Assembly: GCF_003144535.1 (NCBI RefSeq)
Contig: NZ_PHFJ01000001.1
Span: 1 to 64,000 of the forward strand
Direction of reading: 5' to 3'
Length of the DNA: 64,000 bases
Source of the DNA: Proteus penneri
GTDB taxonomy: Bacteria; Pseudomonadota; Gammaproteobacteria; Enterobacterales; Enterobacteriaceae
In this document: in pieces, positions 3,089 through 22,130 of the stretch
How the letters are laid out: each line of letters begins with the position of its first letter
Position numbering within the stretch: position 1 is the first letter of the stretch
Program-made: the position numbers and the translations under genes
The notes under the pieces: model-generated
Told to the model about the DNA's origin: nothing
What the model saw: the letters and a program-made list of their open reading frames with translations, nothing else
The model's database searches: none

Positions 3089-3821
3089 TTATAGAGATAA
3101 ATATTTTTAATTTTTACAAAAAGAAGAATAATTTTATTGTAAATGAACTAAAATCTTCATGCTTAGAGAAATATATTATCATATTTATTAGTATGAGAAA
3201 AAATAGCTAATTGATGCTTGTTTAGAATAAGCTACTCATAAAATTACCTCTTATATTACCTACCACAATTTTACCTCCTGGTAACATTTTTGAAGCTATT
3301 AAACGTATAATTTATGTTTTTCACATCAATAAATTAAAAAATCCATTTAATATGATAAATGCAAAATATACGTATTGGTGAAAATAGGTTATCAGATCAA
3401 AAGTTAAGTATTATCATTAAATGACTGTTTTTGATAATGATAGTTAATATCATATCAGGATAGATTATTGTTGCCTTTTGATCGAGATGAAAAGGTAGTA
3501 ACAATAAGTCTTTGAGCAGTTTAAGAATATGATTTAGTTGCTGGTCGGTTGAGTAGATATTAAAAGACCTGTTAGGATTATTTAGAGAGATTAATATGCT
3601 TTGCTTGTTCTGGGTATAAAACATTTATTAATCATAAAAATAGTAAGATCTCTCTGCAGTTTGACAGCACTACTAACACAAGCCTTTACGATTTGTATAA
3701 ATTCGGTCTTTATGTATCGCAGTAATAGATTGTCATTTAGGCATATTTTTTAGCGTTGTCATTGTGCATTAGATTGCTTCCTTGTTACAAAAAAGGTTAG
3801 GAAATTCTGAATTAAGATCAA
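3089..3821. other. Intergenic region, nothing certain
   Basis: AT-rich spacer between the MrpJ-like gene and the phs operon terminator. One minus-strand frame (3397-3624, 75 codons) has no clear ribosome-binding site and no recognisable family, so I do not call it a gene. Confidence 0.4.
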
Positions 3822-17844: not shown

Positions 17845-18012
17845 ATCTCTATCTCCTATCTATTAATCAACTCACCACAGCCCACAGAATGGACTGTAAT
17901 TAGTTAACTGTGCCTGCTTTTAGCCACGTCAGGCGAGGTGGTTCTCGTGTACCCCTACAGCGAGAAATCGGCTATAATCCACTTACCCCTACAGAATAAG
18001 AGATTATCAACC

Positions 18013-18546
18013 ATGCCGAATTGGATTGAGGCAGTGATTGCCTATTTAAAACAAAACACATCATTGAGGTTCAATATGGTTTGGTTGTTTACTTGGTTAC
18101 TTTTACTTTTGTTTGTTCCTGATTCGGTATCTCATTTTGTTAATGGGAAAATACACTTTTTTAATATCCCTTATGTCGGCGTTACCCTAATCCTGATCCC
18201 TGTTTCATTTTTCATTAGCTATTTTTTAAAGTGGTTGTGGTCTTCATTAATAGGTATGCACAGAAATATAAAAGAGTCTCTAAAATTCAGGCGAACCAAA
18301 ATAGAAATTCAATCACTTTCAGAGAGAGAAAAAGAAATTATCTTGTGTTTAATTGATGGCGATGATATAGACGACTTTGAAAATGATGAAGATGGTATTT
18401 ATGTGTACAGCCTTATGTGTAAAGGTATCATTCATGAGTATCATGATACCTACATAACTAAATACAAATTAGATTCTTACTACCGAAAAGCAATTATCAG
18501 ACTTTTAGTTGAAGCTCATGAGGCGGAACAGAAAATCAACAGATAA
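18013..18546 (+). CDS. sieB: SieB-like superinfection exclusion membrane protein
   Basis: A 177-residue protein with two or three membrane segments (about residues 20-37 and 52-75) and a charged cytoplasmic tail (SLSEREKEIILCLIDGD). Length, topology and place, inside the left operon but on the opposite strand and close to N, match SieB of lambda and P22, which aborts infection by other lambdoid phages. ATG 18013 is chosen over an upstream frame. A TATAAT box at 17973-17978 gives a short leader, but I see no good -35. It should be expressed in the lysogen. Confidence 0.78.
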   Translation: MPNWIEAVIAYLKQNTSLRFNMVWLFTWLLLLLFVPDSVSHFVNGKIHFFNIPYVGVTLILIPVSFFISYFLKWLWSSLIGMHRNIKESLKFRRTKIEIQSLSEREKEIILCLIDGDDIDDFENDEDGIYVYSLMCKGIIHEYHDTYITKYKLDSYYRKAIIRLLVEAHEAEQKINR

Positions 18547-19184: not shown

Positions 19185-19210
19185 ACAAAAAAGCCCTCGC
19201 GGGGAGGGCT
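19185..19210 (-). terminator. Terminator ending the cI-kinase operon
   Basis: On the minus strand, AGCCCTC pairs with GAGGGCT and six Ts follow. It is ten bases beyond the 53-residue gene and separates the lysogenic operon from PL. Confidence 0.85.
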
Positions 19211-19220
19211 GAATTTGAAA

Positions 19221-19382
19221 TTATAGTTTAAAATATTTATTTCTTAGAAGTGAAGATCTAAATTTATCAGAGCGTTCTTTTTTTTCATCTTTATTCAGAA
19301 GATCTGATTTTGTATAAGGGGAAGCCACCGCAACATCCCTTCTGCTGGGTGGCGTATTATTCAACACCGCCCGATTTTTCAT
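19221..19382 (-). CDS. Small basic protein coupled to the kinase gene
   Basis: A 53-residue, strongly basic protein (MKNRAVLNNTPPSRRDV, then RSSLLRNKYFKL). Its ATG lies two bases after the kinase stop, so translation is probably coupled. A terminator follows. It has several Ser and Thr residues and could be a kinase substrate, partner or regulator; that is inference. No family recognised. Confidence 0.55.
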   Translation of the reverse strand: MKNRAVLNNTPPSRRDVAVASPYTKSDLLNKDEKKERSDKFRSSLLRNKYFKL

Positions 19383-19384
19383 AG

Positions 19385-20434
19385 CTATAACCCTTTGAGT
19401 ATTTGATATATTTTTGAATGAGAACAACGGGTAAGCGTACCTTTGCCTTCCTTTCGTTTTCTCCCATCTGGATATACTCTATGACAAATAGAGGATTTTG
19501 TATTGCTATCATAACTTAAATGGAGTATAGCACCTGCGATTTTCTTGCGCCATTCATTTAGTGTGGTATCGGAATTATCGCACTTTCTCCAATCTAACGC
19601 GCCATCATCGTCTTTTATTGATGATAGTGCATTAAGAATATCTAGTGATGACTGAAATCGGTTGTTTGGATTGCTTTCTAAACACTTATTAATTATAGAT
19701 ATTAATTTTTTTGGTATATGCGATGGGTATTGTTTGGAAGGGAATGTTCCAGCTTTTATTGCGGACTCTAACTGCTCAGCATACTGGAATTGAGATATTT
19801 CATTTTCAAACTCAATGGCACCAATGCACATCCTATACAAAGTCATTCCAACTTGGTAGATATCGAAGGTATAGGTAAATCCACCACTTTTGCTTATTGT
19901 GAAATATTCAGGAGGGGTATGAAAATAGTAATTGTGATCAGGTATTGCTGTTGAATTTATATTTATTAATTTAGATAACCCGAAGTCAGCCAGCATTGCT
20001 TCATTTCGGTTTGAAATCATAATATTATTAGGCTTGATATCGAAATGAATTAATTTTTTTGTATGGATATGATATAGGCCACCAATAAACTGTATTGCGT
20101 ACCTTATTATTTCACGTGGAGTGAAATTTCCTCTGCTCATCTTTTGGCTTATCGTGCCATTAATATAATATGGCATTGCTATATAGATTTTTTCATTATC
20201 TTCAGCTGCGTATTGAACCTGCACGATGTTTGGGTGAGCATTTTTGTAAAGCAGTCTTGCCTCAGAAAAATAAGTATCTTTATCTTGATTGGGTTTTTTT
20301 GTGATTTCTTTGATAACCAACTCATGATCTAAATTTTCATCATGAGCAAGATAAACCTCTGAGAAACAACCTTGTTCATCAAGTTTTTTTATTTTTCTAA
20401 ATGACACGTCTGCTTTTTGATATGGGGTGATCAA
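19385..20434 (-). CDS. Eukaryotic-like Ser/Thr protein kinase in the rex position
   Basis: A 349-residue soluble kinase with all catalytic landmarks: Lys42 (VIKE), Glu58 (SEAR), the catalytic loop HFDIKPNNIM (Asp132, Lys134, Asn137), the DFG motif at 150-152 and a TPPEY P+1 segment. The C-terminal 80 residues are outside the kinase fold. Start is TTG 20434 overlapping the previous stop (TTGA); no ATG exists before residue 87. It lies between cI and N, as does Stk of phage 933W, which excludes HK97. A role in superinfection exclusion or abortive infection is therefore likely but inferred. Confidence 0.85.
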   Translation of the reverse strand: MITPYQKADVSFRKIKKLDEQGCFSEVYLAHDENLDHELVIKEITKKPNQDKDTYFSEARLLYKNAHPNIVQVQYAAEDNEKIYIAMPYYINGTISQKMSRGNFTPREIIRYAIQFIGGLYHIHTKKLIHFDIKPNNIMISNRNEAMLADFGLSKLININSTAIPDHNYYFHTPPEYFTISKSGGFTYTFDIYQVGMTLYRMCIGAIEFENEISQFQYAEQLESAIKAGTFPSKQYPSHIPKKLISIINKCLESNPNNRFQSSLDILNALSSIKDDDGALDWRKCDNSDTTLNEWRKKIAGAILHLSYDSNTKSSICHRVYPDGRKRKEGKGTLTRCSHSKIYQILKGL

Positions 20435-20889
20435 AATTTACCCTCCACTGCTAATGCTGCCATCATGGCTTCATTTGTTTCCTGAGTGAATGATGAATTG
20501 TCTATATCATGTATTGATATTTCTGACTTAAGTAATTGTTTATATTCAGTATCGCTTACATTGAGACCTGCCCGTATTCCTGATTTTCGAATGGTAAAGT
20601 ATTTTTTAACTTCACTACTTGAAAATGCTTCTTGTATTACTGCTTCTATATAGAGACGGTCTATGCTCATATTTTGAGAGTTTGCTTCTGTTACCCTTAT
20701 TGATGCGATATCAACATTATAAAACATTAATATATCTAGGATATTGTTACGAACATATTTTAATTTCTCTGGTGTATCTAAAATGCATGGAATATTTATC
20801 ACATCAGAACAAACAAGCTTTTTAGATTCAGTGCAATAAACAATAAATGATGCCACTGAAGGTGAAACTCGAACCCCTAATATTCTCAT
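20431..20889 (-). CDS. DUF3010-like RuvC-fold protein
   Basis: A 152-residue protein with an RNase H/RuvC-like outline: beta-strand start MRILGVRVSPSVASFIVYC, central DIASIRVTEANSQNMSIDRL, and a C-terminal helix with TQETNEAMMAALA. This resembles DUF3010. The usual first acidic residue of active RuvC nucleases (GxD) is replaced (ILGVRVS), so it may not be a nuclease. AGGATGAG precedes ATG 20889. Its stop overlaps the kinase start, so both should be translated together. Confidence 0.65.
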   Translation of the reverse strand: MRILGVRVSPSVASFIVYCTESKKLVCSDVINIPCILDTPEKLKYVRNNILDILMFYNVDIASIRVTEANSQNMSIDRLYIEAVIQEAFSSSEVKKYFTIRKSGIRAGLNVSDTEYKQLLKSEISIHDIDNSSFTQETNEAMMAALAVEGKF

Positions 20890-20920
20890 TTACTCATCCT
20901 TTAAAGGCAATTGAAGACAA

Positions 20921-20976
20921 TTGGTTGACAAAATTACGTCAACCAAATTTCAATTTTACTGCTATTCTGTCAACCA
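20921..20976 (-). promoter_or_regulatory. Promoter-like region with inverted repeat before the kinase module
   Basis: TTGGTTGAC and GTCAACCAA form a perfect 9-bp inverted repeat (20921-20946), and a third half-site GTCAACCA lies at 20969-20976. On the minus strand TTGACA and TTGACG boxes occur here, 50-85 bp before the DUF3010-like start, although no convincing -10 partner is seen. It could give the kinase pair its own regulated promoter within the cI operon. Confidence 0.4.
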
Positions 20977-20993
20977 CTCCATAAAACGTGTCG

Positions 20994-21335
20994 TCACCCA
21001 AAAAAGCAACCTCGCACATCATCTTCAACGAGCCTAATGGCGTCAGAGAAACTACCTAGCATTATTTCATCGTAGTTGTGCCAGTTACTATTTTTATCCA
21101 TCCAAAGCAGAGACCATGAATTCGAATACCTATTATGTGTGATTTTTGCTATAGGTTCTTCTACTCTGCCATCACTCCATATTAGTTGCCTAATTTCAAA
21201 GATAATTACTGAGTCGTCCTCGATACGATACTGTAAATCTAATTCATCCCTTAGGTGCTCTGCTGGGCGGCGTTTTTCCATGAAAAATTCCATACACCGT
21301 CTAATATTTGCTATCTCAATATTGTTAAACGCCAT
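20994..21335 (-). CDS. DUF3024-like protein downstream of cI
   Basis: A 113-residue protein that resembles DUF3024: RRPAEHLRDELDLQYRIED, FEIRQLIWSDGR, IAKITHN and NSWSLLWMDKNSNWHNYD. The family has no known function. AGGAGG lies between the cI stop and ATG 21335, eight bases apart, so it is cotranscribed with cI from PRM and should be made in the lysogen. It is the first gene of the segment that replaces rexAB. Confidence 0.65.
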   Translation of the reverse strand: MAFNNIEIANIRRCMEFFMEKRRPAEHLRDELDLQYRIEDDSVIIFEIRQLIWSDGRVEEPIAKITHNRYSNSWSLLWMDKNSNWHNYDEIMLGSFSDAIRLVEDDVRGCFFG

Positions 21336-21343
21336 ATTTCCTC

Positions 21344-22054
21344 CTAAAACGTATCGTCAGGCCATTGTGACTTGATTACCTTTCCTATGATTGTGCAGTT
21401 ACCGTTAATAGGGATCAGGTCATAGCGTGGGTTTAACGGCTCTAAATATGATATTCCACCTTCTCTAATCAATCGTTTGAATGTGAATTCATCATTTAGC
21501 AAACGAGCAACACAGAAATCTCCGAACTCTACCTCTTCCTCAGGATCAACCAAGATAAGCATTCCTTCAGGAAAACTTGGCTTTCCTCCTGGTGGCGCTG
21601 TCATTGATTGGCCTTCAACCTCTAACCAAAAAGCGCGCTCACTGGCTTTCTTAGCTGTAGGTATCCACGACACAGCATCTTTCTGAGTATATGAGTTAAA
21701 TTCTGTTGAGAAAGCGCCAGCCTGTACCTTAGTGAATAGAGGGTATTGATATTTCTCATCCATGCTTGGTGTTTTTAATGGGCTGACAGCCTTAAACATG
21801 CCTCTAATTTCTTTAGCTAGGGATGGGCTAAATTCATCAACGGTAACTTGTAACGCCTCAGCTAACTTTGCCGCGTTTTCTATGTTTAGAGCGTTTACTC
21901 CATTCAATAACTGAGCAACAGCGCTCTGCCCCATGCCGATTGAATCGCCTAGGGTTTCTTGTGATAAGCCAAGCTCTTTCTTTTTTGCCTCAAAGATATT
22001 TTTCAGGCGAAGAGCGTCAGCTTTCTGTTCTTCTGTGATCGGTTTCTTTTTCAT
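21344..22054 (-). CDS. cI: CI repressor, lambda type
   Basis: A 236-residue repressor unusually close to lambda CI: the N-terminal arm KKKPIT, HTH with recognition helix [10 protein letters not shown] (lambda QSGVGALFNG), and the LexA-like C-terminal protease domain. Self-cleavage should occur at Ala112-Gly113 in VQAGAFS, with Ser150 (EGQSMTAP) and Lys193 (TFKRLIRE) as the catalytic pair. It should bind the six operators at OL and OR and be inactivated by RecA after DNA damage. PRM places the message start at the ATG, so the cI mRNA is probably leaderless, as in lambda. Confidence 0.95.
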
Positions 22055-22060
22055 ACTGCA

Positions 22061-22130
22061 ATTTTATTACCAAATGGAATATTTACCAATCACCGCAGGT
22101 GTTGACTATTTTATCACTTGCGGTGATAAT
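22061..22130. promoter_or_regulatory. OR region: PR, PRM and operators OR1-OR3
   Basis: PR on the plus strand is TTGACT (22102-22107), 17 bp, GATAAT (22125-22130), the same boxes as lambda PR. PRM on the minus strand is TTGGTA (22084-22089), 17 bp, TAAAAT (22061-22066). Operators: OR3 22065-22081 (TATTACCAAATGGAATA), OR2 22088-22104 (AATCACCGCAGGTGTTG), OR1 22112-22128 (TATCACTTGCGGTGATA). The gaps of 6 and 7 bp equal those of lambda. The inverse of OR1 differs from lambda OR3 at one base. Confidence 0.92.

Follow-up and report, generated by a model that had tools for sequence, protein, structure and literature searches.

The operon behind the repressor gene

We analysed 64,000 nucleotides of Proteus penneri DNA (contig NZ_PHFJ01000001.1, positions 1 to 64,000; this whole stretch is called the window). 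On the minus strand of a prophage in the window, a cI-type repressor gene heads an operon with genes for a DUF3024 protein, a RuvC-fold (RuvC-like) protein, a Hanks-type protein kinase of the Stk family and a small basic protein. The last three are referred to as the module. An original prediction made from the bare sequence had placed these genes between cI and a terminator hairpin, and all of them were found there.

22061..22089, minus strand: promoter-like hexamers before cI, candidate for pRM (consensus match only)
21344..22054, minus strand: cI-type repressor with helix-turn-helix (HTH) and S24 parts, head of the operon (PF00717, 2e-26; PF01381, 9e-13)
20994..21335, minus strand: DUF3024 protein, 113 amino acids, neighbour behind cI (Pfam PF11225, 3e-27; PADLOC PDC-S43, 5e-37)
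20431..20889, minus strand: RuvC-fold protein, 152 amino acids, with Arg at the first catalytic site; probably a pseudo-nuclease that partners the kinase
19385..20434, minus strand: Hanks-type protein kinase, Stk family, 349 codons, TTG start (Pkinase, E = 1.4e-42; phrog_2361, 1e-113)
19221..19382, minus strand: basic small protein, 53 codons, third module gene (phrog_4063, 1.2e-6)
19192..19210, minus strand: hairpin resembling an intrinsic terminator, behind the small gene
18840-18571: N-like protein, next after the hairpin (phrog_271, 2.5e-13)

The TTG start codon of the kinase overlaps the stop codon of the RuvC-like gene by 4 nt, and the small open reading frame (ORF) begins 2 nt past the kinase stop codon, both in agreement with the prediction. 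Besides the pair of hexamers before cI, one weak promoter-like match was detected within the operon on the same strand; promoter-like matches in the window were no more frequent than in shuffled sequence.

The kinase had been described as intact, and K42, D132, N137 and D150 are present. Across 41 aligned kinases the catalytic Lys, Asp and Asn and the Asp of the DFG motif are invariant, and two invariant tryptophans follow the kinase domain. The Arg preceding the catalytic Asp is replaced by Phe in 40 of the 41, so that the window protein reads HFD, not HRD. Over 99% of its length the window kinase is 57% identical to Stk of phages phi24B and vB_EcoS_P27 (P27), through which, rather than from the 933W sequence, its predicted relation to Stk of phage 933W could be upheld. 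Full-length similarity, intact kinase motifs and the place behind cI and before the immunity terminator assign it to the Stk family.

The RuvC-like protein of the window (P0003) matched phrog_3875, annotated as 'RuvC-like Holliday junction resolvase', at 4e-76, and the RuvC fold is present over its whole length, as anticipated from the sequence. The label DUF3010-like had to be abandoned: the DUF3010 family of Pfam matched none of 35 aligned members at E<=1, and the Pfam RuvC family (PF02075) matched nine of them (best 3.5e-4). A sequence search of the PDB with the RuvC-like profile gave no match at E<=1. PADLOC yielded nothing at E<=0.05 for seven rescanned RuvC-like proteins; for the 35 members it returned weak matches to six families, the best being HEC-01B with one member (9.5e-4).

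Active RuvC binds metal through a tetrad of four acidic residues. In all 42 aligned RuvC-like proteins the first of these sites is occupied by Arg, and the second carries Arg or Lys as judged by sequence alignment, not superposition. The last acidic site is Glu in 42/42, and Glu68 is kept in 41, with Asp in the remaining one. The family therefore has the fold of an active RuvC resolvase but not its four acids, and its members are probably catalytically dead RuvC-fold proteins.

Pairing, distribution and mobility of the module

Further loci were collected with the RuvC-like alignment as scan query, which is blind to the kinase. It gave 30 loci in the genome_contigs collection and 45 in viral_contigs, which together with 3 phage loci and 4 loci from further genomes make 82; as the scan patterns were strict, the true number lies above 82. 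Excluded before this count were L001 and L009 (the window itself), L005-L008 (phage loci reached by DNA similarity, without a RuvC-like match) and L014 and L015 (weak matches with stops), and the later loci L093 (weak match in a long ORF), L101 and L102 (ruvC) and L099 and L100 (trios) also stand outside it. Because some genomes or records were reached twice, the 82 loci reduce to 52 distinct RuvC-like proteins, which form 42 clusters at 90%. The duplicates are L010/L017, L011/L018 and L013/L041, the last pair ending at a contig edge, and probably L016/L085 and L039/L087, whose proteins are identical.

In all 82 loci the ORF following the RuvC-like gene encodes a kinase, a pairing seen from the RuvC-like side, as kinases of this clade without a RuvC-like gene were not sought systematically. 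In 81 loci the RuvC-like stop and a candidate kinase start overlap by 1-8 nt, and in L084 the start lies 2 nt past the stop; a few loci offer several candidate starts. Distances between RuvC-like proteins and between kinases, compared over 41 loci, correlated with r = 0.916, a value matched by 0 of 2000 permutations. Since RuvC-like protein and kinase are kept in unrelated hosts, the gene order is beyond chance. Strict pairing with overlapping genes suggests that the two proteins may act in one complex or have to be synthesized in a strict order.

The kinase gene is split into two frames in three of the 82 loci (L057, L063 and L086), and the RuvC-like ORF is whole in each. Two of these belong to the 22 Stx-type records and one is another locus; in L057 and L063 homopolymer runs that differ in length by one base separate the frames. 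The splits may be due to phase variation, to decay or to errors in sequencing.

The small gene was sought as an ORF of 40-80 codons whose start lies no more than 30 nt ahead of the kinase stop or 40 nt beyond it. Such an ORF was present in 44 of 44 diverse loci out of the 82, under a permissive criterion that in L039 picked an overlapping ORF instead of the small ORF identified earlier. The window protein is 40% identical to the small protein of P27 (54 amino acids). When a hidden Markov model (HMM) built from 14 alphaproteobacterial small proteins was run against the 1490 ORFs of 30 other loci, the eleven best matches all lay at the module position, with E between 1e-8 and 0.3 and the L039 ORF in eleventh place, and with a mixed-set HMM nine of the 14 alphaproteobacterial small proteins were topmost among 834. 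By eye, the small proteins of Bacillus phage SPbetaL7 and Fodinibius have the piece IDLGNG[FY] in common, and L100 has IRDLGNGY.

The unit spans several phyla, from Proteobacteria to a Bacillus phage and Fodinibius. Its hosts include Xenorhabdus, Psychromonas, Photobacterium, Acinetobacter, Pseudomonas entomophila, Pseudoxanthomonas, Lampropedia, Methylobacterium, Bradyrhizobium, a Scytolyngbya metagenome-assembled genome and Fodinibius, in addition to SPbetaL7. The trios L099 and L100, from the phylum of Fodinibius, have kinases confirmed by Pfam; the small ORF of L100 was taken from an inner start by eye. The family is rare. Matches to phrog_3875 were found in 7 of 394 genomes of the order, among them the window's own and two weak ones with stops, and profile A8 matched 3 of 398 genomes of the phylum (one the window's own, one weak). 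In the phylum of Fodinibius 5 of 296 genomes matched, including Fodinibius itself and two with ruvC, and in the class of Methylobacterium oxalidis 1 of 289, M. oxalidis itself. Of 14 named control genomes, Bacteroides ihuae alone matched phrog_3875, which could reflect the module or plain ruvC alike.

Comparison of 11 locus pairs by blastn showed that six share only DNA running from the RuvC-like gene into the kinase or small gene (1.1-1.6 kb), two share the module and one further piece, and three (two Methylobacterium pairs and Aureimonas) are alike over longer stretches. The gene immediately before the module encodes an S24-type repressor in Acinetobacter (L022) and in Pseudomonas entomophila (L042), and in Lampropedia (L039) such a gene lies one further away; for this reason a place like that of rexAB behind the lambda repressor gene has probably been reached more than once. 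A tail-fibre gene precedes the module in Xenorhabdus (L016) and an OLD-like gene in Sessilibacter (L019). Among 133 ORFs flanking 24 chromosomal loci no Pfam family occurred in more than four, and the families with three or four members were HTH or S24 (25 of 87 families listed). For the flanking PADLOC matches, each of the 25 families listed (out of 63) had a single member, and as the matches were not assigned to individual loci, no defence island is claimed. A 489-kb plasmid of Providencia alcalifaciens (NZ_OU659131.1) encodes at 195357-195812 a RuvC-like protein 96.7% identical to that of the window, with a kinase annotated within the match.

DUF3024 was considered as a further component and rejected. 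It occurs in 22 phage records, 12 with and 10 without a RuvC-like gene; a profile of two DUF3024 proteins matched 26 of the 82 module loci, some of which have short flanks, and the gene is missing in 3 of the 22 Stx-type records. DUF3024 is a neighbour outside the conserved module. The conserved neighbourhood that had been predicted thus held for the RuvC-like gene, the kinase and the small gene and failed for DUF3024. A short direct repeat (around ACGTTT) was seen by eye behind both cI and DUF3024, at about 21340-21365 and 20970-21000 in the window and about 3110-3130 and 3480-3500 in P27 (L003), as if DUF3024 were a separately inserted cassette. Between the DUF3024 and RuvC-like genes lies a 10-bp inverted repeat (20921-20946), possibly an attenuator or operator, and by eye P27 has a hairpin there too. 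Beside N, on the opposite strand, the window encodes a SieB-like protein (17938-18546, plus strand; PF14163, E = 8.5e-8), possibly a second superinfection-exclusion gene of the same region.

A proposed exclusion mechanism and its alternatives

We propose, with a probability of roughly 0.55, that the RuvC-fold protein, the Hanks-type kinase and the small basic protein form a prophage module for abortive infection, of the same kind as Stk of 933W. The module would be made together with the repressor in the lysogen, its transcript ending at the terminator of the immunity region. The kinase would stay silent until a foreign phage infects and would then phosphorylate itself and cell proteins, whereby the infection would be stopped. 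Because Stk is silent until infection, a silencer and a sensor are needed, for which the RuvC-like protein is the natural candidate; as a subunit of the kinase it would most likely act in sensing or in restraint, and the small protein might serve as the kinase's adaptor, substrate or brake. Gene order, conservation, co-inheritance, the fold, the lost first catalytic acid and the intact kinase motifs are observations of the present analysis. Lysogen expression and HK97-dependent activation are taken from papers on the homologous Stk: the 933W tyrosine kinase is cotranscribed with cI and aborts HK97 (PMC3564112), pRM drives stk expression in stable lysogens (PMC3430580), its expression in phi24B is unaltered by induction (PMC4651098), and Stk is little active in uninfected cells (PMC3681748). 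That the window copy acts like Stk, that a complex forms and that the two partners have these roles is what we infer.

Several points weigh against this proposal. In the available portions of PMC3681748, PMC3430580 and PMC3564112 the kinase alone is named for exclusion, without partners, and the primary Stk papers may already show it acting alone. The HMM comparisons argue weakly for homology of the small proteins across clades: the alphaproteobacterial HMM placed only 11 of the 30 true small proteins ahead of any other ORF, several of them with E 0.01-0.3, the other 19 ranked lower or were unlisted, and a lambdoid HMM recovered no others convincingly (best true match E 1.7, rank 5). Two alphaproteobacterial copies with one named neighbour each (L029 and L037) adjoin an ordinary gene, and for most chromosomal copies a prophage setting is putative. 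We know of no experiment that shows the RuvC-like or the small protein to be needed for exclusion.

Overlapping genes in strict pairing, with the putative antitoxin encoded first, also suit an arrangement in which exclusion is the work of the kinase by itself, the RuvC-like protein, as antitoxin or chaperone, does no more than keep it harmless in the uninfected cell, and the small protein is a second neutraliser. The low activity of Stk in uninfected cells points the same way, as do the split kinases next to whole RuvC-like ORFs, which fit a costly kinase unless they are sequencing errors. The Stk papers cited above, in their available portions, report the kinase without a named antitoxin, and we consider this arrangement rather unlikely; it differs from the three-gene exclusion module only in the role of the partner, and the present data separate the two poorly. 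A kinase made in the lysogen could moreover target host proteins, and the module would then alter host physiology (signalling or stress) with HK97 exclusion as a side effect, for which the ordinary gene beside L029 and L037 might speak. The patchy distribution better fits a mobile defence, lesion formation was unchanged without stk in an EDL933-derived etk wzc double mutant (PMC3681748), and little Stk activity was reported there for uninfected cells, all of which makes such a role very improbable. We likewise give little credence to a RuvC-like protein that still acts as an enzyme or remodels DNA, by binding junctions or cleaving them with an altered site, under regulation by the kinase, in a module managing phage recombination instead of defence. 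The whole-length fold and the retained Glu residues at the last site and at position 68 would suit that role; the basic residues at the first and second catalytic sites and the lack of a recurrent family in the chromosomal flanks count against it.

A tentative extension of the exclusion module, which we hold possible but would not expect, concerns its trigger. The pseudo-RuvC, as the sensor, would bind the product or a protein of the foreign phage's recombination system and thus release the kinase, and carrier prophages would use a different annealing protein that gives no trigger. The HK97 trigger of Stk is presumably Orf41. By its position between genes 40 and 42, HK97 gene 41 is erf, encoding the single-strand annealing protein Erf; in GenBank record AF069529 (23786-24780) gene 40 and erf are both labelled Gp40. 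With HK97 as positive control, ERF matched none of 47 module-bearing records, RecT-type proteins were present in 27, and 20 had neither. The window prophage also encodes a RecT-type protein (PF03837, E = 3e-31). The 47 records, many of them fragments, form 17 clusters at 90%, and the apparent avoidance of Erf is no more than suggestive. As background, HK97 Erf matched 484 phage records (Escherichia 35, Salmonella 27, Enterobacteria 8) and P27 Bet 203 (Escherichia 74, Klebsiella 17, Stx 6, Enterobacteria 6, Salmonella 4). Recombinases are described as targets or triggers of other defences (PMC11846896), also in connection with Gabija and Exo-Erf (PMC12407980).

If the proposed module is real, a repair-enzyme fold has been turned into a kinase regulator, and three small genes placed in E. 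coli K-12 make it possible to test what silences Stk and by what means it detects a foreign phage.

Comparison with Stk operons, rexAB and other kinase systems

The original prediction had regarded the four-gene combination as perhaps undescribed. In P27, cI is followed by genes for DUF3024 (113 amino acids), the RuvC-like protein (153 amino acids), Stk, the 54-amino-acid protein and N, the order found in the window, with identities of 40% for DUF3024, 68% for the RuvC-like protein, 57% for the kinase and 40% for the small protein. Across Stx-type phages the window RuvC-like protein shows 68-69% identity, and phi24B has DUF3024, the RuvC-like gene and stk in the same order in a record that says 'similar to bacteriophage 933W'. 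Because P27, and in part phi24B, shows this gene order, the window module is to be seen as the Stk operon of a different host and not an unseen combination. It differs in the TTG start of the kinase, in its host and in the DNA-binding part of cI, which by eye seems unrelated. At least 80% of the P27 stretch from the RuvC-like gene to the terminator is present in 221 of 5426 complete E. coli genomes, and 575 more have a shorter match; of 30 evenly spaced E. coli records among the matches listed, nine have the module, and in the other 21 the match is confined to 34-37 nt at the module end.

The predicted rex position was borne out. Like rexAB of lambda, the window module lies between cI and the immunity terminator, and DNA behind the P27 module matches two E. 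coli places annotated rexB (37 nt, 97.3%), so that the module sits in the rex slot. RexA and RexB are, we assume, neither kinases nor RuvC-fold proteins. In literature searches among open-licence papers, no title or abstract opening listed described a RuvC-like/kinase/small-protein unit, which does not imply absence from print.

Among defence kinases, the window kinase (P0002) matched the PADLOC profile mad6 at 3e-49 and PD-T4-6 at E up to 1.4e-37; since mad6 scores higher, the PD-T4-6 match is unspecific. Stk2 matched the Fodinibius kinase at 5.5e-12. PD-T4-6 and Stk2 each consist of a single gene, and MAD6 is part of a larger system. Unlike all three, the module has an invariable RuvC-like partner, found in 82 of 82 loci collected with the RuvC-like profile, and a small gene. 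The partner in turn differs from the RuvC Holliday-junction resolvase in the Arg at its first catalytic site, in all aligned members, and in being paired with a kinase at every one of these loci. The core of the finding is the known Stk exclusion, and its definition as three genes with a probably dead RuvC partner appears, within the literature searched, to be new.
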